A program made the position numbers and the translations under genes. A DNA stretch of 64,000 nucleotides from Dysgonomonadaceae bacterium PH5-43 (GTDB lineage Bacteria; Bacteroidota; Bacteroidia; Bacteroidales; Azobacteroidaceae), in assembly GCA_029916745.1 (NCBI GenBank), contig JARXWK010000011.1:1-64000 (forward strand), given 5' to 3'. Positions 37,614 to 58,102 of this stretch are shown one piece after another; the stretch's first letter is position 1, and every line of letters begins with the position of its first letter. The notes under the pieces are model-generated. The model was not told the DNA's origin. It did no database searches and saw only the letters and a list, made by a program, of their open reading frames with translations.

Positions 37614-37863
37614 CTTCACTTAGGGTCGCCTCTCTTAGTAGAGACCCTTTGCCTCTCTTAGTAGATAGGCGAGGTGTCTCTACTAAGAACGACGGGGTGG
37701 TTCTACTAAGAGAGATTAGGCGGTTCTATAAAGAGCGGCATCGGGTCTCTACTAAGAAGCAACCCTCCTCTCTACTAACAACGGCAAGGGGTATCTAGTA
37801 AGAAGCAGCTCGCTTATCTAGTAACAACGATAAGGTAGTTCTTATAAGATAGGCAAGGCAAGT
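37614..37863. repeat. Array D: ten 23-bp tandem units
   Basis: A 20-nt lead-in (CTTCACTTAGGG...) is followed by ten exact 23-bp units starting at 37634, 37657, 37680, 37703, 37726, 37749, 37772, 37795, 37818 and 37841. Most units share a conserved left part, CTA(C/G)TAAGAA, and a variable right part of about 13 nt that is often G-rich (GACGGGGTGGTT). It lies upstream of the TonB-receptor promoter and downstream of the GT2 gene. It is homologous to array E; unit 4 is identical in both. Confidence 0.88.
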
Positions 37864-37916
37864 TGTACTAACTAACTTTTCTTCTTTTACTAAGATTGTT
37901 TTACTGGATAGCAATA

Positions 37917-38825
37917 TTAAGAAAACAACAAACCCTTTGTAACGTTAAATCTAAATTGTACGAGTTTTTTGCCTTTGGGGTATTCCATTTTGAAAAGGTA
38001 AAGGAAGAACAATACTATTGTACCGCCCCATTTTATGGTTTCGGCAAAAAGTCGTTTCATGTATTCCTTTTTAGAGATGTTAAGAGTGCGTATTTTTTCT
38101 GTTTTACCTATTGAGAAAGTAAGCTTATTAAAGTACTCTTCGGTTAGTTTAGAGGCTGGTATGTGGTGATAGATTTTAGCTTCTGGAACGTAGTAACAAT
38201 CTATATTGTTATTCATAAGTCGAAGGAAGAAGTCTTTGTCTTCTCCACCCATTAAAGAACCTGCTTTGCGACCTAAGTTAGTCTTAAAACCGCCATACTT
38301 TAAGAATAATTCTCTTTTAAAGGTAGCATGTCCTGTTCCGGGATATTCGCTTTTGTTTACAATCTTTATTTTGGTTCCTTTATTGTATGCTCCTGTTACT
38401 AAAGCGGTAGTGTAAGGCGAAAGCCATTCGGGTTCTTTAGTTTCATAAACAGGAACAACAGGTTCGCTGATTAATTCAGCTTGAGGATAAATGTTTAAGA
38501 AGTCTGACAGTTTTTCTAAGAAGTTAGAGTCGATAGTTTCATCGTCATCTATAAAAACTATGTAATCGTTTATTGCCTTGCTTACTCCAAGATTGCGAGC
38601 GTGAGATATGCCTTGATTAATTTCTTTGTAGTAGTGAAGGTTTATATCATCGGAAGTATTCTCTTTAATGTTGGAAAATACTTCCGATGTATTGTCTGTA
38701 CTGTTATTATCTACAACAATTATCTCAAAATTATTAGGTGAGATGCTTTGCGTTAACACGCTATGCAAAGTTTTAGAAAGGTACTTCGCACGATTGTAAG
38801 TGCAGATAACAACAGAGAAAGTCAT
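37917..38825 (-). CDS. Family 2 glycosyltransferase
   Basis: 302 aa GT-A fold. VVICTYNRAKYLSKTL (4-19) opens the nucleotide-sugar site, VVDNNSTDNT (about 36-45) follows, and FIDDDET (near 91) holds the metal-binding Asp residues. GGEDKDFFLRL (near 193) matches the acceptor/catalytic ED. The C-terminal 40 residues include one hydrophobic segment (TIVLFFLYLF), so it is probably membrane-associated. It is the third gene of an operon after the coiled-coil protein and the M60 peptidase. The acceptor is unknown. Confidence 0.88.
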   Translation of the reverse strand: MTFSVVICTYNRAKYLSKTLHSVLTQSISPNNFEIIVVDNNSTDNTSEVFSNIKENTSDDINLHYYKEINQGISHARNLGVSKAINDYIVFIDDDETIDSNFLEKLSDFLNIYPQAELISEPVVPVYETKEPEWLSPYTTALVTGAYNKGTKIKIVNKSEYPGTGHATFKRELFLKYGGFKTNLGRKAGSLMGGEDKDFFLRLMNNNIDCYYVPEAKIYHHIPASKLTEEYFNKLTFSIGKTEKIRTLNISKKEYMKRLFAETIKWGGTIVLFFLYLFKMEYPKGKKLVQFRFNVTKGLLFS

Positions 38826-38835
38826 TTGTACTTGT

Positions 38836-40665
38836 TTATTTTAATACAGTGTAACGTTTGCCATTCCATTGAACTGCATCTACACGAGTCGTTCCTTTGG
38901 GGCAACGTACTAAAGTTGTTTTGTTATCTTTAGAACCTGCACCAGCAAAAGCTATTTTTACTAACTTGTCGCCTTTGTAAGTTTCAAAAGCCACAACGTT
39001 TTGCCAAGCGTTATTGTCTATAATCAAAGAACCGTCTTCTTGTTTAGTAAATCCTTCATTTGTTTTGCCTTTTACTGCAAGTTTATTTTTGTAATAATTT
39101 TCACTATTAGCAGTAATATAGTGCATAACAGGTGTTGAAGGCTTTTTGTATTTAGATGCGTATTTCTTAACTTCTTCTATGTCTTTACTTTTTATAACCA
39201 TCTGAGCACAAGTGTAATCGTCTACCCATTTGTTTATCTTTTGTAACATACCCGAATGAGCAAAGAAATCAGTAAGGTCTGTTTTTGTAACATCGCAAGC
39301 TGTTTTAATAAATTCAAGTTGAGCTTCGCCGTCGTTTTTAGGTAAGTCTTCTCTTTCTATAGCTTTATTAAATATGTCAGCATATAAGTCTGTGCCGTAC
39401 CACAAAAGAAGTTGCCAGAAAGGAACAAGTTTAACGAAGTGGTCGCCACCCCAATCTCTTGGACGAAGTCTGTCCCATCGGTCGTTGCCTGCTTGTGTAA
39501 GCCATTCTTGATTTTTAATGAAAGCACTTTCCATATAAGCAGTTATTCTACCTCCAGGTATGCGTCCGTCGTAATCTTTTAATACTTCTCTTTCTAATTT
39601 AGGGTTCTCAGGGTCGAATATGTGTTGCGACCAGATAGAGTAGATATTGTTTGTAACTTCTGTTGTTCCTACCCATTTCATCCAAGGGCGCACTTGATTA
39701 ACGTGTCCGAACTCGTGAGCAATTCCCCATAAACTTGTAGGTATTTTGTCGGGATTAGCTACCTCTTTCATTGTGTTGTCGTGAAAAGCAGCACCTATAC
39801 CATCGGCGTGCATAAAACCTTGCCAAATAACTCTTCCGAAAATATGATTTTTAGGAACTTTGTTGTATTTGTTTAGTCCCATAATTTCGTGCTGCATAGA
39901 GATTATACTATCGTATAAGAATACTAATCGTTCGCCATCGGCAGCATATTCTTTAAGAGAGTTAATGCTATAGCATAGTTGAACTCTTTCTCCAAGTATA
40001 TCCATTGTTTCAGCAACTGCATTGTTAAGTAGGTTAGCCCAGTCGGCATTGGTATGTTTGCTTCTGTCGAAGTATCCGTTTACTTTGCCGCCCATAATGT
40101 GAGCTTTAACTGTTTTCCCTTCGTCGTCTTTGTTTTCGGTGAAGTATTGAATATAGCCAGTTCCGTTGTTCTCAGGAATTATGTAGTTAAAACCGGGTCT
40201 TAAACTATAAGTAGAGTTTCCTCCTTCTTTACCGAAATTAGTTATTCTTAAATTGATATTATCGTCCATATCAAATCTGTCCATAATAACTATAGTGGTA
40301 TCTCCTTTAGTAAAATATATTCCTGTAGGGTTTTCAAACTGAGAGTATGCGCCTGTCTTTTGTTGTTTTGCAATTACGTTAGGGTGAAGATAGCATTTGT
40401 AATCTTGTACTCTGAACTCGGTAGGATAATTCCCATTAAGCATATCAGTAAGTAAACTTGCTATTACGGGTTGAGATACTCTTTCTAATATTTTAATGTC
40501 GAAATCTTCGGAGGGACTGCCATAAACATTATCAGCAAACAATGCTCTGTGTTGATAAAATTCTCTTTCGAGAGATGGTTTACGTATTTCTCTTCTTTGT
40601 TGTGCATTTGTTGAAAAAGCAAACGCCAAGAGTAAGCAGGTAGTTAAAATTAATCGTGTTTTCAT
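38836..40665 (-). CDS. Secreted M60-family (enhancin-like) metallopeptidase
   Basis: 609 aa with signal peptide (residues 1-21, ending TNAQ). The zinc site HEFGHVNQ is near 313-320, with the downstream Glu in VGTTEVTNN, matching the M60 pattern HExxH-x(8-28)-E. Related M60 peptidases of gut bacteria cleave mucin-type O-glycoproteins, and viral enhancins attack insect mucin. Export to the periplasm or surface is expected. No T9SS-type C-terminal domain is obvious. Confidence 0.88.
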   Translation of the reverse strand: MKTRLILTTCLLLAFAFSTNAQQRREIRKPSLEREFYQHRALFADNVYGSPSEDFDIKILERVSQPVIASLLTDMLNGNYPTEFRVQDYKCYLHPNVIAKQQKTGAYSQFENPTGIYFTKGDTTIVIMDRFDMDDNINLRITNFGKEGGNSTYSLRPGFNYIIPENNGTGYIQYFTENKDDEGKTVKAHIMGGKVNGYFDRSKHTNADWANLLNNAVAETMDILGERVQLCYSINSLKEYAADGERLVFLYDSIISMQHEIMGLNKYNKVPKNHIFGRVIWQGFMHADGIGAAFHDNTMKEVANPDKIPTSLWGIAHEFGHVNQVRPWMKWVGTTEVTNNIYSIWSQHIFDPENPKLEREVLKDYDGRIPGGRITAYMESAFIKNQEWLTQAGNDRWDRLRPRDWGGDHFVKLVPFWQLLLWYGTDLYADIFNKAIEREDLPKNDGEAQLEFIKTACDVTKTDLTDFFAHSGMLQKINKWVDDYTCAQMVIKSKDIEEVKKYASKYKKPSTPVMHYITANSENYYKNKLAVKGKTNEGFTKQEDGSLIIDNNAWQNVVAFETYKGDKLVKIAFAGAGSKDNKTTLVRCPKGTTRVDAVQWNGKRYTVLK

Positions 40666-40671
40666 TTTCAG

Positions 40672-41547
40672 TTATTTATCTAATTTAAATTCTTTTCGTC
40701 CAATAAGATTACCGTCTGCAAATATGTCTACTCGGTAAGTTCCGGGAAGTAGAAATTCTTCTATTTTCCAATATATGCTCATACGAAGTTCCTCTCCGGT
40801 ATATTCTATAGTTCTTTTAGCTGAGTAGTTTATGTTTTTACCCTCAAATTCAAAAGTATTGCTCGGGCTTTTAACGAGAACGTCATCGTCGGGTTTTTGT
40901 ATTCTGATATATAAATCTTTATTGCCGGGCTCGGCAGTAATGTTCTTATTGACAGTAAACTGAACTTCTATCTGATCCATATTTTTAATCTTAGAAGTTG
41001 TTTTGTTTTTGTTAGTGATACCTTGTACAACTATATTGCTTGCGTCGAGTTTCGATGCTATCTGTACAGTTTCGGTAAGTTTATTCTTTTCTTGGGTTAG
41101 CTGAGAAACTGTTTGAGAAGCTTTTTGATATTTTTCAGTAACTTGGTTTTTCTCTGCTATTAATTGTTGATTAATTCTATTGAGGGAGTCTATTTGCACA
41201 ACGTAGCCGCGCATTATTGTGCGAAGGGTTTCTAATTCTTTCTTTAATTCATTAATGCGCTTTGCATCAGTGGCCTTAACGGTACGAAGTTCTTCTTGTA
41301 AGCGTTGAACTTTAATTTGTTCCGATTCTAATTGAGCAACTAAAGAGTCGTTGCTTAATTGCATCTTGAACCCTTCGTATTGTATGGATAAGTCGTTGTA
41401 TTCGTCTTCTAATTCTTCTTTGAATAGTTCGGATTGTAACACCAATTCGTTGTATTCTCCTTTTTGTTTGATTATATAAATTATTGATACCGTTAGTATG
41501 ATTGCTAATGCTAATATGGTAACGATTGCTATGATTTTTTTATTCAT
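40672..41547 (-). CDS. Membrane-anchored coiled-coil protein of unknown function
   Basis: 291 aa. A single transmembrane helix (about 5-26) is followed by a long coiled coil (about 30-165, rich in Leu, Glu, Lys and Gln heptads) and a beta-rich C-terminal domain (about 185-291; QIEVQFTVNKN ... YRVDIFADGNLIGRKEF). Orientation with the bulk in the periplasm is likely. I recognise no named family. It is 6 nt upstream of the M60 peptidase gene, suggesting co-expression. Confidence 0.65.
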   Translation of the reverse strand: MNKKIIAIVTILALAIILTVSIIYIIKQKGEYNELVLQSELFKEELEDEYNDLSIQYEGFKMQLSNDSLVAQLESEQIKVQRLQEELRTVKATDAKRINELKKELETLRTIMRGYVVQIDSLNRINQQLIAEKNQVTEKYQKASQTVSQLTQEKNKLTETVQIASKLDASNIVVQGITNKNKTTSKIKNMDQIEVQFTVNKNITAEPGNKDLYIRIQKPDDDVLVKSPSNTFEFEGKNINYSAKRTIEYTGEELRMSIYWKIEEFLLPGTYRVDIFADGNLIGRKEFKLDK

Positions 41548-41572
41548 TTCTCTTTTTAGTAATAATCAGATG

Positions 41573-41580
41573 CAAAGGTA
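41573..41580 (-). promoter_or_regulatory. -7 element of the coiled-coil/M60/GT2 operon
   Basis: On the minus strand TACCTTTG, about 26 nt before the start codon. Confidence 0.5.
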
Positions 41581-41612
41581 GCTTTATTTTACTAAAAAGC
41601 TAAATGCTATAA

Positions 41613-41643
41613 CAAAAAAAGAGCAGGTTTTAGCCTGCTCTTT
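41613..41643 (-). terminator. Terminator of rpmE2
   Basis: A 10-bp stem (AAAGAGCAGG / CCTGCTCTTT) with a TTTTAG loop; read on the minus strand it is followed by a run of T. Confidence 0.85.
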
Positions 41644-41668
41644 ATTCTATTGTATGTACTTTAGAAAC

Positions 41669-41923
41669 TTACTTTTTGCTTCTATTTCCGTAACGGTTCA
41701 TAAATTTATCAACACGTCCTGCTGTATCCACAAGTTTTTGTTTTCCTGTGTAGAAAGGGTGAGATGTACTTGAGATTTCTATTTTAACTAATGGATAAGT
41801 AACTCCATCGATTTCAATAGTTTCTTTAGCGTTGATAGTAGAACGAGTGATGAATGTATCATCATTCGATAAGTCTTTAAATACTACCGGGCGGTAATTT
41901 TCTGGGTGAATTCCTGCTTTCAT
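41669..41923 (-). CDS. rpmE2: Type B 50S ribosomal protein L31
   Basis: 84 aa. [17 protein letters not shown] and [24 protein letters not shown] are the L31 signatures. The CxxC zinc ligands of the type A protein are absent, which defines the zinc-independent type B paralogue. In organisms with both types it replaces the zinc form under zinc limitation; here it may be the only copy. Confidence 0.96.
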
Positions 41924-41972
41924 ATCTTTTATTGTTTTTATTATTTAATCGATTTCCAAACGATTTGAGCGG

Positions 41973-41980
41973 CAAAAGTA
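41973..41980 (-). promoter_or_regulatory. -7 element of rpmE2
   Basis: On the minus strand TACTTTTG, a near-consensus -7 sequence about 50 nt before the start codon. Confidence 0.45.
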
Positions 41981-42015
41981 CATAAAATTATTATAATGGC
42001 AAAGTTTTGTAGTTT

Positions 42016-43179
42016 TTATTTTACTGTTGATGTTGTTTTGCCTTCGTAATATATTGTTTCTATAACATCTCCTTCTTTAATGTCTTTTGCAGATTTTACA
42101 GCTTTTCCATCTTTTAGGGTTATAGAAAATCCCTTTTTCAATATGTAAGAAGGAGAAGATAACTTCAGAAACGATTCTATCGACTTTAGTTCATTCTTAT
42201 TTCTTTCTATAAGCATATTGGAGAATACAGGAATGTATTGAATGTAGTCGTTAAGATGTTTTTTCTCATCATACATTCTTCTGTTTACTAATTCGATTAT
42301 GTTAGACTGACAGTTGAGTAATCTATTGTACGATTCGTTTAAGATATTTATTAAGTATTCGGCAACGGCAGTTGGGGTCTTTGCTCGGTAATAAGCTATT
42401 AGGTCTAATACAGTGTCGTCTCTTTCGTGTCCTATCCCAGTGATGATTGGGAGAGGGAACTGAGCGCAATTTACAGCTAACTCATAGCTATCGAAAGATG
42501 CTAAATCGGAAGAGGCTCCTCCTCCTCTAATAATTATTACAACGTCGAATTTATCTTGATGATTATATATCTTGTTTAATGCTGAAATTACAGATGCTTC
42601 TGTTTTGTCTCCTTGCATTATAGCCGGAAACAAATGAGTGTAGAATACAAATCCTTGTTTGTTATTTGAGAGTTGATTGATAAAATCTTCGTATCCTGCT
42701 GCTGTAGGAGATGATATTATTGCTATTCTCTTTGGTGGAGTAGGGAGGCTGAGTTCTTTGTTAAGAGTAAATACACCGTCCTCTTTTAGTTGGGATATTA
42801 TCTCTTGTCTTTTTTGTTGCATATCGCCAACTGTATAGTTTGGGTCTATGTCTAATATGTTTAGCCCATATCCATACAAGGGGTGAAAGTCGATAGATAC
42901 TTTAACGAGTACTTTTAATCCAGAAGAAAAGCATTGTCCTGTTTTTTGTTCAAAGCCGGGTTTTAATAATGCGAAAATTGAAGACCAGATGTAAGCCCTT
43001 GCTTTAGCAGTTGTTGTATTGGTCTTTGAGTTTTTTTCAATCAGCTCTAAATAACAATGACCGTTACTGTTTTGTCGCACATCGCTTGTTTCTGCTATTA
43101 TCCAATAAGTGTCGGGGAAGGCATTCTTTACCTCATTACTTACTAATTGGTTTAATTGCGAAAGAGTAATGTGTTTCAT
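42016..43179 (-). CDS. xseA: Exodeoxyribonuclease VII large subunit
   Basis: 387 aa. An N-terminal OB-fold (about 1-100) precedes the catalytic domain with RIAIISSPTAAGYEDF, VVIIIRGGGASSDLASFDS (near 213-231) and ITGIGHERDDTVLDLIA (near 244-260). It degrades single-stranded DNA into oligonucleotides, in complex with several XseB copies. No xseB-like frame follows it, so the small subunit must be encoded elsewhere. Last gene of the porU-porV-ispF-xseA run. Confidence 0.95.
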   Translation of the reverse strand: MKHITLSQLNQLVSNEVKNAFPDTYWIIAETSDVRQNSNGHCYLELIEKNSKTNTTTAKARAYIWSSIFALLKPGFEQKTGQCFSSGLKVLVKVSIDFHPLYGYGLNILDIDPNYTVGDMQQKRQEIISQLKEDGVFTLNKELSLPTPPKRIAIISSPTAAGYEDFINQLSNNKQGFVFYTHLFPAIMQGDKTEASVISALNKIYNHQDKFDVVIIIRGGGASSDLASFDSYELAVNCAQFPLPIITGIGHERDDTVLDLIAYYRAKTPTAVAEYLINILNESYNRLLNCQSNIIELVNRRMYDEKKHLNDYIQYIPVFSNMLIERNKNELKSIESFLKLSSPSYILKKGFSITLKDGKAVKSAKDIKEGDVIETIYYEGKTTSTVK

Positions 43180-43187
43180 TATAATCT

Positions 43188-43670
43188 TTACGATTTGTAG
43201 ATTAAAGCAACAGCGTGAACGGCTATTCCTTCTTCTCTTCCAACAAATCCCATTTTTTCGGAAGTTGTGGCTTTTATCGAAATGTCATCTTCTTCTACTT
43301 GCATAACTTTACTTAAGCATTCTTTCATTGCTTGAATGTGTGGATTTATTTTTGGTTGTTCTGCACAGACTGTAATGTCGGCATTGCCTAATTCATAATC
43401 TTTACTGCGAATAAGTTTCATAGTGTCAGCAAGTAGTATCTTACTGTCGATATTTTTATATTCGCTTGCAGTGTCGGGGAAATGAAAACCAATGTCTCTG
43501 AGGTTTGCAGCTCCAAGAAGGGCGTCGCACAGAGCGTGAATCAGAACATCTGCATCGGAATGTCCTTTTAGTCCTTTGTTATGTTCTAACTTGATGCCAC
43601 CTAACCATAATTCGCGATTGTCTGCAAACTGGTGAACATCGTATCCGAAGCCAACTCTTATCTTTTTCAT
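43188..43670 (-). CDS. ispF: 2-C-methyl-D-erythritol 2,4-cyclodiphosphate synthase
   Basis: 160 aa. GFGYDVHQF (7-15) carries the metal-binding Asp and His. GHSDADVLIHALCDALLG and IGFHFPDT supply the third ligand and the active-site loop; TTSEKMGFVGREEGIAV is the C-terminal signature. It cyclises CDP-ME-2-phosphate in the MEP pathway. The start overlaps the end of porV by one base. The porU-porV-ispF order is also known from Porphyromonas gingivalis. Confidence 0.96.
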   Translation of the reverse strand: MKKIRVGFGYDVHQFADNRELWLGGIKLEHNKGLKGHSDADVLIHALCDALLGAANLRDIGFHFPDTASEYKNIDSKILLADTMKLIRSKDYELGNADITVCAEQPKINPHIQAMKECLSKVMQVEEDDISIKATTSEKMGFVGREEGIAVHAVALIYKS

Positions 43671-44830
43671 TAGTTCATCAGATTTTTCAATCCGTCTAAG
43701 TCGAAACTTAGAGAAAAGCGAAGTGTTTGATCTAACGGATTAGAAGGAACTGTTGATATTAGGTAAGATACATCTAATTGGAAGGCTGTTAATTTGAAGC
43801 CTGCTCCAAGAGAAAAGAATTGTCTGTTACCTTTCGATTGACTTTCGTGGAAATAACCTCCACGCACGAAGAATCTATTATCATAGGCATACTCTGCTCC
43901 TAACGACCAACTTACTTCTTCTAATTCTTCTTTAAACCCACCAGGAGCATCAGCGAAAGATTTAAATATCCCCGAGATTGGAGATTGAGAAGTGTATTCG
44001 TCCCAAGCTTCTCCGTCTTCGTAGTCTGCTTTTGGTGTTGGAACTAATAGTTTATTAACATCAGCATTTACTGAAAGAGTGTTATAGTCGTCTAAAGGGA
44101 ATAGAAGAGAACCTCCAAGTCGTAGGTTTGTAGGTAAGAAAGAGTGGGTGTTGCCATCGTCGTAAGAAACTTTATTTCCTATGTTTGATACGTTAAAACC
44201 TAAACCTAATAAACATTCGTTACTTCCCATCATAACGTAATTGTTGTAATAACCAGCTATGTCGGCTGCTACAGAGGTAGCGGGACTCATTTCTTCGCTA
44301 ACACCTCCACCTAAGTCGGAGTAGATAAATCTTAAAGCTCCAGCTATAGAGAATGTTTCTGTCGCCTTAAGAGAGTAACTAACGTCAACTGCCATTTCGT
44401 AAGGGTTTGTTCTTCCTAATTCGGAATTATTACCTGGTCCTGTAAGTATAACTTCACCTAAAGAGAAGTATCTTAACGAGGCTCCTATTGCGTGTCTGTC
44501 GCTATCTCCTAGTTTGTAATATCCAGAAAGGTATGCTAAGAAAATGTCGTCGACAAGTTTTTGTAACCAAGGAGTGTATGTGAAACCAACACCAGCTTTG
44601 CTGTATGCAAAAGCATATTTAGCAGGATTCCAAAATTGAGAATTAACATCTGGTTCAGTTGCGGCTCCTATATCTCCCATACCTCCACCTCTTGCATCAG
44701 GCGCTATAGATAAAGAAGGGACTCCCGTTCTTAGAGGGTTGAAGCTTTCATTTTTTATATCATCGGCAGCGAATATAGAAGTAGAAACTGCTATAGCCAA
44801 TAGTGATAGGATAAATTTGTATTTGTTCAT
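43670..44830 (-). CDS. porV: Type IX secretion outer-membrane shuttle protein PorV (LptO)
   Basis: 386 aa, signal peptide (1-21, ending IFAA), then a FadL-like barrel. SIAPDARGGGMGDIGAAT near the N-terminus followed by FWNPAKYAF is the PorV signature. PorV carries cargo from the translocon to PorU. It is 51 nt downstream of porU. Confidence 0.94.
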   Translation of the reverse strand: MNKYKFILSLLAIAVSTSIFAADDIKNESFNPLRTGVPSLSIAPDARGGGMGDIGAATEPDVNSQFWNPAKYAFAYSKAGVGFTYTPWLQKLVDDIFLAYLSGYYKLGDSDRHAIGASLRYFSLGEVILTGPGNNSELGRTNPYEMAVDVSYSLKATETFSIAGALRFIYSDLGGGVSEEMSPATSVAADIAGYYNNYVMMGSNECLLGLGFNVSNIGNKVSYDDGNTHSFLPTNLRLGGSLLFPLDDYNTLSVNADVNKLLVPTPKADYEDGEAWDEYTSQSPISGIFKSFADAPGGFKEELEEVSWSLGAEYAYDNRFFVRGGYFHESQSKGNRQFFSLGAGFKLTAFQLDVSYLISTVPSNPLDQTLRFSLSFDLDGLKNLMN

Positions 44831-44881
44831 CTTTTAATTATTAGTCTATTATACAATCTAATAAACTTACTTAAAGCCGTT

Positions 44882-48298: not shown

Positions 48299-48299
48299 T

Positions 48300-48917: not shown

Positions 48918-48939
48918 AGCGATATAATAAATTTACATA

Positions 48940-48947
48940 CAAAGATA
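48940..48947 (-). promoter_or_regulatory. -7 element of the FAH-porU-porV-ispF-xseA operon
   Basis: On the minus strand TATCTTTG, about 23 nt before the FAH start codon. Confidence 0.55.
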
Positions 48948-49001
48948 GTAAAGTCTTGCAGTATAGAGTATTGTTTAAGAATATTTATATTTTTGCAGAT
49001 C

Positions 49002-49913
49002 TTAGAATATGCCTTCTGATATGAAATACCAAGCCGTAAGAGTTATAAAGCTTGCAATTATTCCGAAGCCCACAACTAATGAACAAAATCGAGGATTCAT
49101 ATTATACTGAGTGGCTAATAAGCTTGCTGTGATATGCGAAGACATACCTGCTTCAAATACGCTTATCTTAGCTAAGTTGCCTTCCGAACCTAATAGAAGG
49201 GCAAGTATAAGTACTAACGTTGGAGCTAATATTAATTTGTATAATAAGCCAGCAGATATTAAACGCCATTCTCTTTTGAAATCGCCAAGCTTGAGTTGTA
49301 ACCCTATAGAGAATAAAGCTATCGGCGACATAGTAGCGACTAATTTATCTAACAACGGATTTATTGGCGATATATCCATAAAGGTAGGAAGTATAAGAGC
49401 TAATAAACAGGCAATGAAAGGAGGAAACTTAAATACCTTCTTAACTATATAGCCAACGTCGACTTGGTTTGACTTTTCGGCTGAAGCTTTCAGTACGGTA
49501 ATTACAGCTACGGTAGCAAATAATACGAACGTAATCTGATCGAATACAACAGCGTGTTGAATTTCAGACTCTCCATAATAAGCCGAAATCATAGGATAGC
49601 CAATAAAAGCAGTGTTGCCCAAGCCGCAAGTAATAAGCAAAGCCGTGCGTGATGCTACCGATAATCTCTTTTTCCTGTCGTAGATATTAACGAATAGCCA
49701 AGCTCCAAACCAAATAACTAAAGGTCCTAAAACGGATAGTAGTAAATGAAGTCCCCATTCTATTTCGGGTACGAAACGTAGCGATAGCGCCGGTAGAGCT
49801 ATGTACAATATCCATGCATTCAGACTTTTGTGTGCGTCGGTGGGGAGTATGCGCAACTTCGACATTATCATTCCTGCCGAAATGCATACAAATATAAGGA
49901 TAAAACTTATCAT
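49002..49913 (-). CDS. AEC family transporter
   Basis: 303 aa with about ten membrane helices in two repeats (N-terminal FILIFVCISAGMIMSK; middle LGNTAFIGYPMISAYYG; C-terminal FEAGMSSHITASLLATQYN). Members of the auxin-efflux-carrier family export small organic anions or weak acids. Substrate unknown. It starts 6 nt after the GHL10 hydrolase gene, so the two are likely co-transcribed. Confidence 0.88.
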   Translation of the reverse strand: MISFILIFVCISAGMIMSKLRILPTDAHKSLNAWILYIALPALSLRFVPEIEWGLHLLLSVLGPLVIWFGAWLFVNIYDRKKRLSVASRTALLITCGLGNTAFIGYPMISAYYGESEIQHAVVFDQITFVLFATVAVITVLKASAEKSNQVDVGYIVKKVFKFPPFIACLLALILPTFMDISPINPLLDKLVATMSPIALFSIGLQLKLGDFKREWRLISAGLLYKLILAPTLVLILALLLGSEGNLAKISVFEAGMSSHITASLLATQYNMNPRFCSLVVGFGIIASFITLTAWYFISEGIF

Positions 49914-49919
49914 TGCCTT

Positions 49920-51356
49920 TTATTGAGATGTTTTGAAGTAAACAGCTGGCGATGCCACGCTTTCGTTGTGGTATCTGTTGTAGGTAGTAACAACATAGTA
50001 GCACCCTATTTCAGTGAAAATGTCGATAGGTAGAAATGCCATACTTCCACTTACGTGAGTTTTTACCAAGTTCTCTGCCTTAGTGATGTCGACAGGTAGA
50101 CTTCTTGACCTATATATATTGTAAAAAACCTCTTCGTTGCCCTTGGGTTGAACGGTCTCGTCCCAACTTAACACCATAAACACACCAGCTTTTTTAGCTT
50201 TCAGATTAAGGGGATATACAGGTTGTCTATCGTCTAACCAAGTTAGAGGAGGAAGCGTTGCCGGGAACTGATAAAAGTTAGACCTTATTTCGTTCATCAC
50301 GTTCTTCTTGTTGGTCATAAGATGGCGAGTTCTAAAGAACGCATTCCCCTCAGCGTTATGTTCTCTGCTGAGTTTTATTTGTTCGTTTATCTTGTTTACA
50401 GTCCAATTCTCTTCCTTTTCATCTAAGTTGTATACGGCAAGTCCGGGTATAACCAGGCGTCCATAACTTCTTTTTTGCCAGTCTTTAAGGAAAGGGAGAA
50501 ATAAATCGTCTTTATAATACATCATAGGAACAACAAAGTCTACTATTCCGTCTTTTAGCCATTTGTCGGGGTCTTGATGAACCGACTCTAAAGCCGTCCA
50601 ATGTTTTCTCGTAACACTTGGCAGGTGAGAGTACATACCAACAGTTGCGGTACTAACCTGCACCCAAGGTTTTTGTTTCTTAACCTTATCGTACACCTTA
50701 GACACAAAGTTGGTTATATTGTCGCATCGCCATTTTGCTTTAGTTTTACCTTTGCCATATAACTTATAAGTGTTGTCGTCGGCAAAAGTGCTTGCATTTT
50801 CAGGATAGCGAATATAATCGAAGTGTATGCCGTCTATATCATACTTGCTTACAATCTCGTCAACAATAGATAGAAGGTGGGTGTCTGTTTTAGGGTTGCC
50901 CGGGTCTAAATAATATAAGTCTTTATGCTTTATGGAGTTTGTTTTATCCTTTGGATTAGCTCCCATATTATAAGTAACAATCCAAGCGTGACATTCCAAA
51001 CCTCGCTTATGACACTCTTCTATAGCGAACTTAAGTGGGTCGTATTTCGACCAAGTGTTCTTTACGCTCTGAATAAACGGACTAACAGGCTCTATCGAAG
51101 AGTTGTAGATAACATGACCTCTTATGCGTGTTTGAAGGAATACCATATTAAAGTTAGCCTCAACCAATTTATCGAGTATATCAATCAGTTCGTCTTGATG
51201 GTTGTTAATCTCGTTAGAGTTTTTGTAAGGCTTCGATGGCCAATCTAAATTAGCATAGCTTGTAAGCCATACGGCACGTATCTCTTGCTTAGGCACTTGA
51301 GCCTTAATGCTTAATAGAGTAGATGCGATGATTAGTGTAAGAATAATACGTTTCAT
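49920..51356 (-). CDS. Secreted family-10-like glycosylhydrolase (GHL10/DUF187)
   Basis: 478 aa, signal peptide 1-19. REIRAVWLTSY-type start (EIRAVWLTSYANLDWP, near 24) and TIM-barrel blocks FNMVFLQTRIRGHVIY, LECHAWIVTYN, IDGIHFDYIRYP and DFVVPMMYY identify the GHL10 group. A fibronectin-like domain follows (about 385-470). The activity is glycoside hydrolysis, perhaps of peptidoglycan or glycosaminoglycan; the substrate is not fixed by sequence. Divergent from dnaG. Confidence 0.88.
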   Translation of the reverse strand: MKRIILTLIIASTLLSIKAQVPKQEIRAVWLTSYANLDWPSKPYKNSNEINNHQDELIDILDKLVEANFNMVFLQTRIRGHVIYNSSIEPVSPFIQSVKNTWSKYDPLKFAIEECHKRGLECHAWIVTYNMGANPKDKTNSIKHKDLYYLDPGNPKTDTHLLSIVDEIVSKYDIDGIHFDYIRYPENASTFADDNTYKLYGKGKTKAKWRCDNITNFVSKVYDKVKKQKPWVQVSTATVGMYSHLPSVTRKHWTALESVHQDPDKWLKDGIVDFVVPMMYYKDDLFLPFLKDWQKRSYGRLVIPGLAVYNLDEKEENWTVNKINEQIKLSREHNAEGNAFFRTRHLMTNKKNVMNEIRSNFYQFPATLPPLTWLDDRQPVYPLNLKAKKAGVFMVLSWDETVQPKGNEEVFYNIYRSRSLPVDITKAENLVKTHVSGSMAFLPIDIFTEIGCYYVVTTYNRYHNESVASPAVYFKTSQ

Positions 51357-51363
51357 AAGCCGA

Positions 51364-51371
51364 CAAAATTA
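51364..51371 (-). promoter_or_regulatory. -7 element of the GHL10/AEC operon
   Basis: On the minus strand TAATTTTG, 8 nt before the start codon, so the transcript would be nearly leaderless if this element is used. It lies back to back with the dnaG promoter. Confidence 0.35.
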
Positions 51372-51403
51372 GAGCAAATAAGTGGTTAAAGCAAATAAAG
51401 TTT

Positions 51404-51411
51404 TATCTTTG
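51404..51411 (+). promoter_or_regulatory. -7 element of dnaG
   Basis: TATCTTTG lies 8 nt before the ATG at 51420 or its neighbouring start; the leader is very short. Confidence 0.5.
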
Positions 51412-51418
51412 TGCTGCA

Positions 51419-53452
51419 ATGATAGATAATTTAACCATAGAAAGAATACAGTCGGCTGCACAGATTTACGATGTGGTATCAGACTTTATTACGCTGCGTA
51501 AAAGAGGAGTTAATTACGTGGGGCTTTGTCCTTTTCACGAAGATAAGACTCCTTCTTTTTATGTGTCTCCGGCGAAGAATATTTGTAAGTGTTTTGCTTG
51601 CGGCGAGGGAGGAACTCCCATTCATTTTATAATGAAGCACGAGCAACTGTCGTATGTTGAGGCTTTGAAACACTTAGCTAAGAAATACGGAATAGAAGTA
51701 AAAGAAACCGAACTCTCTGACGAACAAAAGCAAGCGCAAGGCGATAGGGAAGCAATGTTTATTCTTAACGGTTTCGCCCAAAAGACATTCACTAACAACC
51801 TGTTCGATACAAAGGAGGGTAGAGATATAGCTCTCTCTTATTTCGAAGAACGAGGTTTTCGGGAAGATATCATCAAGAAGTTTCAGTTAGGGTATTGCCT
51901 CGACCAGAAAGATAGCTTTACGCAACAAGCAATTAAGTCGGGATATAAGCAAGAATACTTAGAGAAAACAGGGCTTACCTTCTTTGGCGAAAACAACTAT
52001 CAAGCCGACCGCTTTAGAGGGCGAGTAATGTTTCCGGTGCATACAATATCGGGCAAGGTTATTGCTTTCGGAGGGCGTACATTAAAGAAAGACGATAAAG
52101 CCAAATACGTAAACTCTCCCGAGAGCGAAATATACCACAAGAGCAACGAACTGTATGGTATATATTTTGCCCGTCAATCTATGGTTAAGTACGATAAATG
52201 TTTCTTGGTAGAAGGCTATACCGATGTTATATCTATGCATCAGGCAGGTATCGAAAACGTAGTAGCCTCGTCGGGTACGGCGCTCACGCTCGGGCAAATT
52301 CGTCTTATTCATCGCTTTACAGCCAACGTTACCGTTTTATACGATGGCGACTCGGCAGGTATTAAGGCAGCCGTTAGAGGTATCGACTTGCTTTTAGAGG
52401 CTGGGCTGAATATCAAAATAGTGCTTCTGCCCGAAGGCGAAGACCCCGACTCGTTTTCTAAAAAGCAATCGGCATCGTCGTTTATTGAATATATAAAGAC
52501 TAACGAGGTCGACTTCGTGCAGTTTAAGGCAGACCTACTTATAAAAGATGCCGGTAACGACCCCGTTAAGAAAGCTAATATTATAACAGAGGTAGTAAAC
52601 ACCATAGCTCTTATACCGGAAGAGATAATTCGTTCGCTTTACGTTAAAGAATGCTCTCGCTTGTTGGGGGTAGACGAGCGACTTCTGGTTCATAACATAG
52701 CCAAGAAGCGTCAGGAGATTTTAGTTCAGAAGAAGAAGACAATATATCCCGACCCCGAAAACCCCGACAATGTAGTTGGAGCTACCGAAACCATACCCAC
52801 AACGCCTATTCGTACTGATAAGGATATTGCAATATCTTCGTTTCCGCTCGACAAATACGAAAGGGAAATATTAGAATACGTAATAAAGTACGGCACGCAA
52901 ACTATGACTTACAAAGACCCCGAAACGCAAGAAGCTATCTCTTTCAGGGTAATAGACTTTATTGTTTCCGACCTGGTAGACGACGAGCTGGCATTCGAGA
53001 ACCCTAAATACAAACGAATACTCGACGAGGCATACGAATACTCTAAACAAGAAAACCCGAACTTAAGCTTAGAGCAATATCTGCTTAACCACATCGATAC
53101 CGAAATAAGCCAATTGGTTATCGACATCTCTACCGAACGATACATATTAGGCAAGAGATACACGCAAACCGTAGAGAGAATAAATTCGGAGGAAGACAAA
53201 GCGGAACTCGAAAAAGAAAAGGCAGCCAAGTTTAACCAAATGCTGTTAGATAAAGTGCCTTATCTGATGTTTAACTACAAAGATGCCATAATAAAGCAAA
53301 AGGAGAAAGATATAAACGAAAAGATAATGGCATCTATTAAAGACAACAATATATCGCAACAGTTAGAGCTTGTGAAAGAGCTATTGGTGTTACAAGACTT
53401 TAAGAAAACTATAGCTCGCCAGCTGGGAGAGCGAATAGTGGTAAGAATGTAA
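51419..53452 (+). CDS. dnaG: DNA primase
   Basis: 677 aa. An N-terminal CHC2 zinc ribbon has Cys-37, His-40, Cys-58 and Cys-61. The catalytic TOPRIM domain is at about 255-345, with FLVEGYTDVISMHQAG (Glu) and VLYDGDSAGIKA (DxD). The C-terminal helicase-interaction domain (about 480-677) is less conserved. It makes RNA primers for replication with DnaB. The coding sequence starts with GTG/ATG-adjacent codons at 51419-51420; the family start MIDNLTIERIQ is used. Confidence 0.96.
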   Translation: MIDNLTIERIQSAAQIYDVVSDFITLRKRGVNYVGLCPFHEDKTPSFYVSPAKNICKCFACGEGGTPIHFIMKHEQLSYVEALKHLAKKYGIEVKETELSDEQKQAQGDREAMFILNGFAQKTFTNNLFDTKEGRDIALSYFEERGFREDIIKKFQLGYCLDQKDSFTQQAIKSGYKQEYLEKTGLTFFGENNYQADRFRGRVMFPVHTISGKVIAFGGRTLKKDDKAKYVNSPESEIYHKSNELYGIYFARQSMVKYDKCFLVEGYTDVISMHQAGIENVVASSGTALTLGQIRLIHRFTANVTVLYDGDSAGIKAAVRGIDLLLEAGLNIKIVLLPEGEDPDSFSKKQSASSFIEYIKTNEVDFVQFKADLLIKDAGNDPVKKANIITEVVNTIALIPEEIIRSLYVKECSRLLGVDERLLVHNIAKKRQEILVQKKKTIYPDPENPDNVVGATETIPTTPIRTDKDIAISSFPLDKYEREILEYVIKYGTQTMTYKDPETQEAISFRVIDFIVSDLVDDELAFENPKYKRILDEAYEYSKQENPNLSLEQYLLNHIDTEISQLVIDISTERYILGKRYTQTVERINSEEDKAELEKEKAAKFNQMLLDKVPYLMFNYKDAIIKQKEKDINEKIMASIKDNNISQQLELVKELLVLQDFKKTIARQLGERIVVRM

Positions 53453-53521
53453 CCACCACAGCCGCCTATTAGTTAATACAAGAAGAAAATCGGAAATTCC
53501 GATTTATTAATAATCTTTCAC
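53453..53521. other. Short gap after dnaG
   Basis: No terminator or gene seen before the next promoter. Confidence 0.5.
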
Positions 53522-53529
53522 TATCTTTG
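53522..53529 (+). promoter_or_regulatory. -7 element of the LRR gene pair
   Basis: TATCTTTG followed by C. The first good start codon with a signal peptide is at 53795, so the leader would be about 260 nt, much longer than others in this window. Confidence 0.55.
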
Positions 53530-53534
53530 CACGC

Positions 53535-53794
53535 ATACAACAACAAAGTCAATAACAGTATGGCGTACTCTTTCAATAATAAATCGAGGTTAAACATTAT
53601 TAACAGTAAGCTGTTGGTAGTGTCGGTTAATTTATTAGAGAGAGACTCATCGCCCCTATACCTTTTAAATAACGCGCCTGCCTGCGCGCGTAATACAACA
53701 ACCTTTATACCCCTATAGTAATCAACGTTAAAGGGTCAGTACGAAAACTCGGTTGCAAACAACAGAATTATTAATTACTAAATATATAAAAGTT
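53535..53794 (+). promoter_or_regulatory. Long 5' leader of the LRR operon, function unknown
   Basis: About 260 nt. It contains a GC-rich hairpin (ACGCGC at 53672-53677 with GCGCGT at 53686-53691) in otherwise A/T-rich sequence, and a possible 52-codon frame from the ATG at 53560 to 53718 ending PACARNTTTFIPL. It may be a regulatory leader, a leader peptide or simply spacer. The sequence just before the ATG (ATATATAAAAGTT) is repeated in front of the second LRR gene. Confidence 0.4.
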
Positions 53795-55951
53795 ATGAAA
53801 ACAAAATTACTTACATTGTTAATGTGCTTAGCGGTTGCCGTAAGCTCTTTTGCTCAAAGTGGCACAACAGGCAATCTTACTTGGACGTTTAATGAAGAGA
53901 CAGGAGAGTTGAAGATTGAAGGAAAAGGAAAAATGCCAAATTATGATTATTATGATGATCAAAATCAAACACCATGGCATGATTATCTATCTTCAATTAA
54001 ATCCATAAGTATTGGTGATGAGATAACAACAATTGGAGGATTTGCTTTTTATTACTGTCAGTCTTTGCAAAGCATCTCTATACCTAATTCAGTAACCTCC
54101 ATTGGGTTTGATGCTTTTTCTTACTGTGAGTCTTTGACAAGCATCTCTATTCCTAATTCGGTAACAACTATTGGTAATTATGCTTTTTACAAGTGCAGTT
54201 CTCTAAAAGAGGTGAAAGTGTTCTGGGCTACTCCTTTAGATATAACAGAAGATGTATTTGTTTTAACATTCAGCCCCTGTGCGCTGTTGATTCCCGCAGG
54301 CACAAAGTCTCTGTACGAGAAAGCAGTAGGTTGGAAAGAGTTCGGCGCTATCGTAGAAAGTGGCACAACAGGCAATCTAACTTGGACGCTTAATTGGACA
54401 ACAGGCGAGCTTAAGATTGAAGGAAAAGGAGAAATGCCAGATTATGATGATGGATCTCCCTGGTCTGATTACAGATCTTCAATTAAATCCATAAGTATTG
54501 GTAATGGGATAACAACAATTGGCGATAATGCTTTTAGTAAATGTCTTGCCTTGTCAAGTATTACTATCCCTAATTCGGTAACCACAATTGGAGCAAGTGC
54601 TTTTTTGACCTGTGTTGCCTTGTCAAGTATCACTCTTCCTAATTCAGTAACTTCCATTGGAGAGAATGCTTTTTTGACCTGTCTATCTTTGAAAAGCATA
54701 ACTATCCCTAATTCCGTAACTTCCATTGGAGGAAGTGCTTTTCGTAGCTGTAGTTCTTTGAAAGGCATCACTCTTCCTAATTCGGTAACCTCTATTGGAG
54801 TAAGTGCTTTTGAAGGCTGTAGGTCTTTAGCAAACATCACTCTTCCTGATTCCTTGATCTCAATTGGAGGAGGTGCTTTTTCTGGTTGTGAGTCTTTGAC
54901 AAGCATCACTATCCCTAATTCAGTAACAACTATTGGAGTAAGTGCTTTTTATCGTTGTAGTTCTTTGGAAAGTATCACTCTTCCTAATTCGGTAACCACA
55001 ATTGGAGAGAATACTTTTTTTTACTGTGGGTCTTTGGCGAATATAACCCTTCCAAATTCCGTAACATCCATTGGATGGGGTGCTTTTTATGGCTGTAGCT
55101 CTTTGAAAGGCATTACTCTTCCTGATTCGGTAACAACTATTGGCGATTATGCTTTTTCGAGATGTGCGTCTTTAGCAGCTATAGATGTAAAAGAGGGTAA
55201 TGCTAAATATTCATCAACCGATGGTATCTTATTTAATAAAGATAAAACAGAGTTGGTGCGTTATCCTGCAGGAAAATCGGCAACGTCATACGCCATTCCC
55301 TCTACAGTAATAAGTATAGCGGATGATGCTTTTGGGAATTGCGAGAAATTAAACTCTATTCAAGTGTCCGATAATGTAGTCCGTATTGGTAATAATGCTT
55401 TTTCTTACTGTGATTCCTTGACAAATATCATTCTTCCTAATTCGGTAACCACAATTGGAGTAAAAGCTTTTCTTAGCTGTAACTCTTTATTAAGTATTAC
55501 TCTGCCTGCAAATGTAACAAGTATAGGCGATTATGCTTTTACCGAGTGCAATTCTCTAAAAGAGATGAAAGTGTTCTGGGCTACTCCTTTAGATGTGAAA
55601 GAAGAAGTATTTGGTTTCCCATTCGAAGACTGTACGCTGTCGGTTCCCGCAGGTACTAAGTCTCTGTACGAGAATGCAGATGTGTGGAAAAACTTTGGTA
55701 CCATCGTAGAGCGTGATGAAACAAACATCGACAATCTCGAAACATCTAACAATATCTACATCTCAGGCAACACCTTATATATATGTACTCCCGTATCGGA
55801 GACTATCACTGTCTATTCCGTAACAGGCGAGTTGCTATATACTTTCGCTAAGCCAGCAGGCGAGGTATCGTTCATTCTTAATAACACAAAGCATCAGATG
55901 CTGATAGTGAGAACAGAGTCGGGAGTAACAAAGAAATTAATTAATATATAA
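53795..55951 (+). CDS. BspA-type leucine-rich repeat surface protein (copy 1)
   Basis: 718 aa from the ATG at 53795, which gives a clean signal peptide (MKTKLLTLLMCLAVAVSSFA). About 20 LRR_5 repeats of 23 residues follow (IPNSVTSIG-xxAFxxCxSLxS). Two repeat blocks are each opened by GTTGNLTWT, and one non-repeat insert (GNAKYSSTDGILFNKDK) is typical of BspA proteins. The last 75 residues (IYISGNTLYI ... ITVYSVTGELLYTF ... MLIVRTESG) look like a T9SS sorting domain. BspA proteins bind fibronectin, fibrinogen or other bacteria; the ligand here is unknown. Confidence 0.85.
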   Translation: MKTKLLTLLMCLAVAVSSFAQSGTTGNLTWTFNEETGELKIEGKGKMPNYDYYDDQNQTPWHDYLSSIKSISIGDEITTIGGFAFYYCQSLQSISIPNSVTSIGFDAFSYCESLTSISIPNSVTTIGNYAFYKCSSLKEVKVFWATPLDITEDVFVLTFSPCALLIPAGTKSLYEKAVGWKEFGAIVESGTTGNLTWTLNWTTGELKIEGKGEMPDYDDGSPWSDYRSSIKSISIGNGITTIGDNAFSKCLALSSITIPNSVTTIGASAFLTCVALSSITLPNSVTSIGENAFLTCLSLKSITIPNSVTSIGGSAFRSCSSLKGITLPNSVTSIGVSAFEGCRSLANITLPDSLISIGGGAFSGCESLTSITIPNSVTTIGVSAFYRCSSLESITLPNSVTTIGENTFFYCGSLANITLPNSVTSIGWGAFYGCSSLKGITLPDSVTTIGDYAFSRCASLAAIDVKEGNAKYSSTDGILFNKDKTELVRYPAGKSATSYAIPSTVISIADDAFGNCEKLNSIQVSDNVVRIGNNAFSYCDSLTNIILPNSVTTIGVKAFLSCNSLLSITLPANVTSIGDYAFTECNSLKEMKVFWATPLDVKEEVFGFPFEDCTLSVPAGTKSLYENADVWKNFGTIVERDETNIDNLETSNNIYISGNTLYICTPVSETITVYSVTGELLYTFAKPAGEVSFILNNTKHQMLIVRTESGVTKKLINI

Positions 55952-55956
55952 AAGTT

Positions 55957-57393
55957 ATGAAAACAAGATTACTTACAGTGTTAATGTGCCTAATGGTTGC
56001 CATAAGCTCTTTTGCTCAAAGTGGCACAACGGGCAATCTTACTTGGACGTTTAATGAGACAATGGGCGAGCTTAAGATTGAAGGAAAAGGAGAAATGCCA
56101 GATTATGGTGTTCTTTATGGTCAAATACCATGGTATGATTACCGAACTTCAATTAAATCCATAAGTATTAGTGATGGTATAACAAGTATTGGTAGTCAGG
56201 CTTTTTCTGGCTGCGAGTCCCTAACTGACATTGCTATTCCTAATTCGGTAGCAACTATTGATTATAGAGCTTTTTATGAATGTACTGCCTTGGTGAGTAT
56301 TATTATTCCTAATTCGGTAACAACTATTGGTGATAATGCTTTTGAAGACTGTACTGCCTTAGTAAATATTACTATTCCTAATTCGGTAACAACTATTGAT
56401 AATTATGCTTTTTCTAACTGTACTGCCTTGGTGAATATTACTATTCCTAATTCGGTAACAACTATTGGTGATAATGCTTTTGAAGACTGTACTGCCTTGG
56501 AAAATGTTGCTATCTCTAATTCGGTAACAACTATTGGCAATTATGCTTTTTCTAGGTGTGAGTCCCTGACCAGTATCGCTATTCCTAATTCGGTAACAGC
56601 TCTTGGCTATTATGCTTTTTCTAACTGTACTGCCTTGGAAAATGTTGCTATCTCTAATTCGGTAACAACTATTGGTGTTTATACTTTTTATAAGTGTAAG
56701 TCCCTGACCAGTATCGCTATCCCTAATTCAGTAACCCATATTAGCGATTATGCTTTTTCTAACTGTACTGCCTTGGTAAATATTTCTCTCCCTAATTCAG
56801 TAACAACTATTGGAGAGAGTGCTTTTTCCAGCTGTGAGTCTTTGGATAGCATCACTCTTCCTAATTCAGTAACAACAATTGGAGAGAGTGCATTTTGGGG
56901 TTGTAGTTCTATGACAAGCATCATTCTTCCTAATTCGGTAACAAGTATAGGTAACGAAGCTTTTGTTAGGTGCGATTCTTTAAAAGAGATTAAAGTGTTT
57001 TGGTCTACCCCTTTGGATATAACAGAAGAGCTATTTGTATTAAAGGAATACAACTATAATTTCCCATTCGACGACTGTACGCTTTATGTTCCCGCAGGCA
57101 CTAAGTCTCTATACAAGAAAGCAGAAGTTTGGCAACAATTCGGCACAATATTAGAGCACGGCGAAACCAACATCGACAATATTGAAACATCTAACAATAT
57201 CTACATCTCTGGCAACACCTTATATATATGTACTCCTATATCGGAGACTATCACAGTCTATTCCGTAACAGGCGAGTTGCTATATACTTTCGCTAAGCCA
57301 GCAGGCGAGGCATCGTTCACTCTTAATAACACAAAGCATCAGGTGATGATAGTGAGAACAGAGTCGGGAGAGATAAAGAAGATACTAGACTAA
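55957..57393 (+). CDS. BspA-type leucine-rich repeat surface protein (copy 2)
   Basis: 478 aa, 5 nt after copy 1. Signal peptide MKTRLLTVLMCLMVAISSFA, then one LRR block of about 13 repeats and the same C-terminal sorting-type domain, almost identical in nucleotide sequence to copy 1 over the last 200 bp. It lacks the second GTTGNLTWT block and the BspA insert. It arose by tandem duplication. The 69-bp DNA repeats inside both genes invite slippage or gene conversion, so copy length may vary between strains. Confidence 0.85.
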   Translation: MKTRLLTVLMCLMVAISSFAQSGTTGNLTWTFNETMGELKIEGKGEMPDYGVLYGQIPWYDYRTSIKSISISDGITSIGSQAFSGCESLTDIAIPNSVATIDYRAFYECTALVSIIIPNSVTTIGDNAFEDCTALVNITIPNSVTTIDNYAFSNCTALVNITIPNSVTTIGDNAFEDCTALENVAISNSVTTIGNYAFSRCESLTSIAIPNSVTALGYYAFSNCTALENVAISNSVTTIGVYTFYKCKSLTSIAIPNSVTHISDYAFSNCTALVNISLPNSVTTIGESAFSSCESLDSITLPNSVTTIGESAFWGCSSMTSIILPNSVTSIGNEAFVRCDSLKEIKVFWSTPLDITEELFVLKEYNYNFPFDDCTLYVPAGTKSLYKKAEVWQQFGTILEHGETNIDNIETSNNIYISGNTLYICTPISETITVYSVTGELLYTFAKPAGEASFTLNNTKHQVMIVRTESGEIKKILD

Positions 57394-57413
57394 ATAATCA
57401 CAATAAACCAGAG

Positions 57414-57447
57414 CGAGCGGATTCAGTCGAGTCCGCTCGATTTGTTT
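57414..57447 (+). terminator. Terminator of the LRR operon
   Basis: An 11-bp stem (CGAGCGGATTC / GAGTCCGCTCG, one T-G pair) with an AGTC loop, followed by ATTTGTTTTG. Confidence 0.8.
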
Positions 57448-57509
57448 TGTCGCTTCGCGCCAGTTCTTAGTTCTTCACTCTTAGTTCAAAAAAGGCTGAA
57501 AGCCTTTTT
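57448..57509. repeat. Dispersed element (copy 4) and hairpin before array B
   Basis: CGCTTCGCGCCAGTTCTTAG and TTCACTCTTAGTTC runs resemble the right half of copy 1. The AAAAAGGCT-GAA-AGCCTTTTT hairpin at 57489-57509 then abuts array B, as at 16916-16940. Confidence 0.65.
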
Positions 57510-57666
57510 GTTTCATACATAGACATAATCCATTTCATACTTTGAAACGATCCGTTTCTCGGTTTGATATAATTCGTTTCTCGGTTTGAAAACACTTGTT
57601 TCATATAGGTGAAACACTTTGTTTTATACTAATGAAACAACCTGTTTCATACGGGTGAAACGACAG
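57510..57666. repeat. Array B: seven 22-23 bp tandem units
   Basis: Units start at 57510, 57532, 57554, 57576, 57598, 57621 and 57644 with lengths 22,22,22,22,23,23,23, exactly as in array A. Each unit is GTTTC-like at the start with a GAAA block further in; unit 5 begins GTTTCATATAGGTGAAACAC in both arrays and is identical throughout. The order and lengths match array A although single bases differ. Confidence 0.88.
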
Positions 57667-57799
57667 ACAAGCAAGATAAAAGATAAAAACTGGTGTGCTT
57701 CGCACAAGTTAAAAACTAAAAACTAAGAACTAAAAGTTGGCGCAAAGCGAAGCACATAACTCTTAGTTCTTCACTCTTAGTTCTTAGTTCAGAAAAAAG
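57667..57799. repeat. Dispersed element (copy 5) between arrays B and E
   Basis: AGATAAAAGATAAAAACTGG, TGTGCTTCGCACAAG, the AAAACTA-heptamer run, AAGTTGGCGCAAAGCGAAGC and TTCTTAGTTC runs. Its left part is roughly an inverted copy of the sequence before array B, so array B is flanked by inverted repeats like the inside of a MITE. The right part leads into array E. Confidence 0.65.
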
Positions 57800-58049
57800 C
57801 TTCACTTAGGGCCTTCTCTCTACTAAGAGACCCCTCGTGTCTCTACTAAGAGAGGCGATGTCTCTCTACTAAGAAAGACGGGGTGGTTCTACTAAGAGAG
57901 ATTAGGCGGTTCTCTAAAGAGCGACATCGGGTATCTAGTAAGAACGACGAGGGGTATCTAGTAAGAACGGCAGGGGGTATCTAGTAAGAAACAATTCCCC
58001 TCTCTTATAACAACAACGAGGGTGTTATAATAACAAAGACAAGGGGTTT
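57800..58049. repeat. Array E: ten 23-bp tandem units
   Basis: The same 20-nt lead-in as array D (CTTCACTTAGGG...) is followed by ten 23-bp units starting at 57820, 57843, 57866, 57889, 57912, 57935, 57958, 57981, 58004 and 58027. Left parts are mostly CTA(C/G)TAAGAA; right parts vary. Unit 4 is identical to unit 4 of array D and units 3 and 5 differ by a few bases. It lies between the convergent LRR and tricorn-like genes, so it is not in a promoter. Confidence 0.88.
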
Positions 58050-58102
58050 ATAGTAACCTCCTTGCCTTTGTTGTGAAGATTGTTTTATTAAGCTTTTGCG
58101 TT

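Follow-up and report, generated by a model that had tools for sequence, protein, structure and literature searches.

Two 23-nucleotide repeat ladders of Dysgonomonadaceae bacterium PH5-43 are probable copies of a dispersed, MITE-like minisatellite element

In the first 64,000 nt of contig JARXWK010000011.1 of Dysgonomonadaceae bacterium PH5-43 (the window), two arrays of ten 23-nt units, here called D and E, share one lead-in and belong to a family that is dispersed through the genome in at least 88 copies. We consider it likely that both are copies of a non-autonomous, non-coding minisatellite that resembles a miniature inverted-repeat transposable element (MITE) and follows a plan like that of BrickBuilt, the minisatellite-containing MITE of Porphyromonas gingivalis and Porphyromonas gulae (Klein et al. 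2015, PMC4596501). Two puzzling arrays would in this way resolve into a single defined element, a minisatellite dispersed at high density, and a kind of element reported from Porphyromonas would extend to another Bacteroidales lineage.

Each array follows a lead-in of 20 nt, CTTCACTTAGGG plus 8 nt in D, which starts at 37614 in D (37614-37633) and at 57800 in E (57800-57819), and runs on the plus strand in ten indel-free 23-nt steps to 37863 and 58049, respectively (units at 37634-37863 and 57820-58049). The original prediction, two arrays of ten exact 23-bp units behind the same lead-in, holds for the coordinates, the lead-in and the exact period, but the units are not exact in sequence, and in units 1 and 2 of D the core is inverted (TTAGTA, not TACTAA). 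Identities between D and E are 0.65, 0.70, 0.96, 1.00, 0.87, 0.52, 0.87, 0.74, 0.70 and 0.61 for units 1 to 10; as had been noticed before, unit 4 is the same in both and units 3 and 5 are only a few bases apart (one and three, respectively). This mutual likeness is explained by their common subfamily, since both carry GATTAG in unit 4 (29 copies in all; 39 copies are of the other type) and both are without the long tail described below. D is flanked by genes for a glycosyltransferase and a TonB-dependent receptor, both on the minus strand, at a distance of about 230 nt ahead of the first codon of the receptor gene, and E sits between convergent genes for a BspA-type leucine-rich repeat (LRR) protein and a tricorn-like protease. 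The earlier placement of the arrays, one upstream of a receptor promoter and one between convergent genes, is retained, but their shared unit order is a family likeness and not a link between the two sites.

Across the 2.54-Mb assembly of 46 contigs, 81 occurrences of the lead-in 12-mer were counted, far more than chance would give, compared with zero for a reversed-pattern control, and 80 of the 81 exact lead-ins head a ladder or the remnant of one. The remaining match (C2:23371) was discarded as a chance match, being followed by unrelated sequence. A profile of units 1-4, which excluded the lead-in, identified 82 places with at least 81 bits, 74 of them with an exact lead-in and eight with one to three mismatches; six further exact copies scored lower or were cut. 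The resulting 88 copies are a lower bound, since 150 of 1455 candidates were scored, and the profile, trained on 71 of the 80 copies, all with exact lead-in, is biased towards their kin. Mapping all genome copies, as the original prediction proposed, was thus the right check (80 exact lead-in copies plus eight diverged ones), and a dispersed family of this size bears out its view that the arrays reflect more than independent local drift at two sites. By a rough estimate, about 1% of the genome belongs to the family. Strict conservation marks the left end, which reads AAAG-CTTCACTTAGGG: among the 82 profile-found copies the lead-in shows 13 mismatches in 984 positions, a deviation approximately ten times below that of units 1-3, where 10-15% of positions depart from the majority base.

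The order of the units is shared as well. Across 76 of the 80 copies (leaving out C14:121 and C15:72, which are cut by contig ends, and the atypical C8:40767 and C8:48376), same-position identity is 0.81 for unit 1, 0.80 for unit 2 and 0.86 for unit 3, compared with 0.52-0.64 between different positions among these three units, and it drops with distance from the lead-in (unit 4, 0.58; unit 8, 0.42). This order, kept near the lead-in and decaying outward, indicates that finished arrays were copied whole round the genome, without spacer acquisition. The arrays consist of roughly 5 to 13 head-to-tail units of 23 nt with small palindromic cores, and the core is found in both orientations at one and the same position (50 versus 21 copies in unit 1, 31 versus 40 in unit 2 and 70 versus 5 in unit 3). 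The constant-plus-variable look of the unit described earlier is real, but it arises in part from these two-way palindromic cores and from the divergence away from the lead-in.

Beyond the units, the copies differ in what flanks them. In 32 of 80 copies the array leads on its 3' side into a conserved tail of approximately 230-240 nt, which was unrecognised in 41 copies, while seven are cut by contig ends; a copy is called short where the long tail was not recognised by pattern. To the left of the lead-in, at least five module types were distinguished by eye, two of which are heptamer blocks (5' of 17 and 19 of the 80 copies), and heptamer blocks are more frequent in copies that have the long tail (23 of 32) than in those where it was not recognised (12 of 41). 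According to a mechanical check, 78 of the 80 copies overlap no open reading frame (ORF) of 70 codons or more, the flagged ones being C8:48376 and C19:8351. The gene setting of the 67 copies scored on both sides is convergent in 22, divergent in 15 and tandem in 30. At C8:48227 and C8:48376 (L049 and L050) two lead-ins face away from each other at a distance of about 140 bp, and the second heads a remnant only. Long GATA tetranucleotide runs lie shortly beyond the copies C7:8644 (L003) and C21:61243 (L081).

The ends of the copies point to a possible source of mobility. The right ends of some copies resemble TTTTATCGGACAGTAATA of a resident IS4-family element, and such ends (GTTTTAYYGGAYAGCAATA) match the end of this element; the copy at C2:81852 agrees with it in 17 of 18 bases, and D in 14 of 18. 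The IS4-family element itself (C26:4411-5819) is complete and single-copy, encodes a transposase of 404 aa, has the ends TATTACTGTCCGATAAAA and is flanked by what inspection by eye shows to be a direct repeat of 9 bp, GTTGAGAAT. Its end motif, allowing up to three mismatches, occurs 40 times in the genome versus 10 times in the control. We also identified a likely empty site: the genes round the long copy C17:4746 are divergent and approximately 956 nt apart, and in a sister genome the orthologues of the two (82% identity across 243 aa and 89% across 112 aa) are likewise divergent, with only 103 nt and no ladder between them. Two very small elements, each with two inverted IS4-type ends, were seen in addition, one of about 54 bp (C23:46640-46693; L102 ~1440-1520) and one of about 139 bp (C3:125563-125701; L135 1066-1204), the second being 74% like the resident end.

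On this basis we propose that an element comprises the AAAG-CTTCACTTAGGG left end, 5 to 13 units and a right end with or without the tail of 230-240 nt, and that a trans-acting enzyme, most likely a DDE transposase of IS4 type that recognises the element ends, would have duplicated finished arrays into further intergenic sites. Slippage, together with template switching at small palindromes or hairpins (the predicted hairpins are plausible), would then have altered unit number and core orientation within the copies, and effects on neighbouring genes, if any, would be secondary. Several observations weigh against such a MITE-like origin. None of the 27 right-end rows tested has a convincing target-site duplication beside the terminal repeat; on the left, terminal repeats are at best degenerate or of other types, right ends being clear in some copies; and for element E no clear terminus like that of an insertion sequence was found at the right end (best match with six mismatches). 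The limits of the element are unclear, blurred by left flanks made of at least five modules, and a single-copy IS4-family element may not be the driver at all. The strict lead-in might just as well serve as a binding site for a host factor, and the lone empty site at C17:4746 could reflect a deletion in the sister genome.

Comparison with known systems places the family nearest to BrickBuilt in plan (PMC4596501). Both have 23-nt tandem units without spacers, units that are in part conserved and in part less so, at least partly common sequences on both sides of the array, predicted stem-loops, a dispersed and intergenic distribution of non-identical copies, and some sites that are empty in relatives. 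Here, however, at least 88 copies are present versus 19 for BrickBuilt; a strict lead-in of 12-16 nt with several left modules takes the place of one long leader; and the right ends fall into two classes, the long tail being present in 32 of the 80 copies. The ends are IS4-family-like here and of the IS5 family in BrickBuilt, with different terminal inverted repeat (TIR) sequences: the IS5-type TIRs GAGACCTTTGCA and TGCAAAGGTCTC were not found in our family, which by eye has TGCAAAG alone in common with them at the left end. We suggest that the family works like BrickBuilt without filing it as a member, as its ends differ and the likeness seen is one of plan, period and intergenic habit. MITEPgRS/464 of P. 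gingivalis (PMC4596501) is likewise MITE-like with a tandem repeat, but is described there with 41-nt units, IS5-type ends and 10-20 copies. Like MITEs in general (PMC10969869), the copies are short, non-coding and high in number, and it is the target-site duplication that was not seen in the 27 right-end rows.

A different explanation sees in the copies a cellular regulatory or nucleoid element, with the lead-in and first units as selected binding sites or as a transcribed RNA structure at gene borders, acting as a mobile promoter, terminator or organiser; we regard this as unlikely, although several results speak for it. The lead-in is conserved about tenfold better than units 1-3; array D folds well (z -5.9 as RNA and -4.2 as DNA); the downstream gene faces the copy with its start in 18 of 30 long-tail copies versus 11 of 39 other copies (Fisher p 0.013, uncorrected for the tables examined; p 0.16 for the upstream gene); and BrickBuilt segments drive lacZ in E. 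coli (PMC4596501). However, the folding of E as RNA is weak (z -2.3), the consensus folds of the two subfamilies, the second from 38 of its 39 copies (L086 was left out), show covariation in only 1 of 42 and 2 of 30 pairs, and neither the window nor 11 loci holding long-tail copies gave an Rfam match at threshold. No promoter- or terminator-like site was found in D, which is no departure from chance; E has one promoter-like site versus 0.8 expected, and of the four terminator-like sites round E (0.6 expected) one lies at the array end. With almost no covariation in either subfamily, a conserved RNA was set aside, and a regulatory role of the copies is possible but unsupported.

Palindromic repeats of the repetitive extragenic palindromic (REP) or bacterial interspersed mosaic element (BIME) type, spread by a REP-associated tyrosine transposase (RAYT), share with the family an intergenic position, small palindromic cores and mosaics with other repeats or motifs, and such repeat families vary between related species (PMC3733652). 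Our copies are ordered arrays of fixed 23-nt period, not single or paired palindromes, and a search for Y1_Tnp gave no match in the genome and was positive in 5 of 14 known genomes used as control. The absent RAYT gene largely refutes this explanation, which we hold to be very improbable; a missed or lost RAYT is possible. A CRISPR-like memory (clustered regularly interspaced short palindromic repeats), with the constant part as repeat and the variable part as acquired spacer, would account for the constant-plus-variable look and for a leader-like lead-in at one end. Nevertheless, tens of copies genome-wide carry the same variable parts at a given unit position, which agrees with the earlier judgement that the arrays are not CRISPR-like, and the units are most alike beside the lead-in, exactly where newly acquired spacers would be expected to vary the most. 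The variable parts, for which matches in other genome or phage sequences had been envisaged, thus recur in the copies of their own genome, but array D found no match among 50,697 phage or 72,556 plasmid records, and a phage or plasmid origin was set aside on the same result. No Cas domain was detected among the eight window proteins scanned, no genome-wide search for cas genes having been made. Taken together, we give a CRISPR-like memory next to no credence.

The family in its present sequence appears confined to this genome: at E 0.001, array D matched none of 57 other genomes, 33 of them in the same genus, and the exact lead-in pattern had zero matches in a collection of 84,980 species, from which records of the own or very near genomes were possibly excluded. 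When the tricorn gene beside E was compared with other genomes, the closest of the relatives retained (MAG U_126897, a metagenome-assembled genome; protein 78% identical) showed another 23-nt ladder directly 3' of this gene. In this sister genome (G058), which has its first contig in common with the genus member G024, the ladder is itself dispersed (61 matches; 30 loci taken, 27 with a lag-23 signal), and its units are ordered, with same-position identities of 0.47-0.91 (20 of the 30 loci, those amenable to anchoring). Its core, GCGAAGAGTAT, has inverted counterparts, and many copies are flanked by heptamer blocks, with other heptamers (CAGTAAA/CAGTGAA) in the same role. The two ladders thus agree in period, ordered units, two-way cores, heptamer blocks and a copy placed 3' of the tricorn gene, yet the lead-in CTTCACTTAGGG was not found in the G058-type ladder and no sequence homology can be demonstrated. 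Homology, plausible by eye, failed a permutation test of the unit profiles (980 of 5000 permutations reach the observed value) and an nhmmer comparison (best E 3.1; shuffled best 0.31) and was set aside. Positional conservation of copies between the two genomes was likewise judged weak: 9 of 76 ORFs in the 30 loci match ORFs flanking our copies, compared with about three expected by a rough guess, and these nine include the tricorn gene used to find the locus and one weak match of 35%.

Among 38 genomes of the genus, G058-type ladders were found in G024 only, with a single 30-bp match in G010. Stretches of relatives totalling 885 kb (the G024 stretch excluded; two stretches all N) contained one lag-23 array, a local one in G051, and such ladders are therefore not general in the genus. 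The G051 array (L306 9594-9801) consists of 23-nt tandem CTCACAATCTTGTCAATTTTTAT units, has one more copy nearby and is not dispersed. In the open-access literature we found no account of a dispersed 23-nt ladder beyond P. gingivalis and P. gulae; BrickBuilt is also named in PMC5771137. A sister ladder with the same period and a copy at the same gene, without detectable homology, may mean either that the 23-nt spacing is constrained or that homologues have diverged beyond recognition. It is conceivable, albeit improbable in our estimation, that dispersed period-23 ladders form a bacterial repeat class in which one sister species differs from the next in sequence but retains the period, the unit order, the inverted cores and even a site. 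A DNA-binding, replication or transposition machine that reads spacing and hairpin geometry, not sequence, would then keep them up in Bacteroidales, and BrickBuilt would be a third case, named independently. The genus also includes near-complete genomes of 1.0-1.2 Mb, a size that may point to a relation to Candidatus Azobacteroides.

Within the window, the left flank of element D (37560-37613, plus strand) is a T-rich heptamer block (TTTTATC/TTTTAGT/TTTTAAC) terminating in TGTGAAACACAAAG, the same block being found 5' of 17 of the 80 copies, and its right end (37864-37916, plus strand) is of the short class, with GTTTTACTGGATAGCAATA as the last letters, the stretch that shares 14 of 18 terminal bases with the resident IS4-family element. 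Element E has a heptamer block (TTAGTTC/TTCACTC) as left flank (57759-57799, plus strand), terminating in AGTTCAGAAAAAAG and of the type seen 5' of 19 of the 80 copies, and a right end (58050-58102, plus strand) that reaches the tricorn stop codon, with a terminator-like hairpin at 58043-58060. The intergenic region of E is a mosaic that also holds a copy (57500-57661) of a second repeat family with units of about 22 nt (GTTTCAT...ATGAAAC), which occurs again at 17017-17093 and in L092, L093, L097 and L099-L101; several of its copies terminate in GTTTTACCGGACAGCAATAA, as does element D, and small repeats of other kinds are closed by this terminus as well. Blocks of 7-nt repeats (TTTTAGT/TTTTAAC; TTAGTTC) at 16792-16916, 37484-37598 and 57467-57790 flank the ladders and the second family. 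Upstream of E, two tandem ORFs of BspA-type leucine-rich repeats (53753-57393; domains checked in the second, 55957-57393) show a DNA period of 69 bp.

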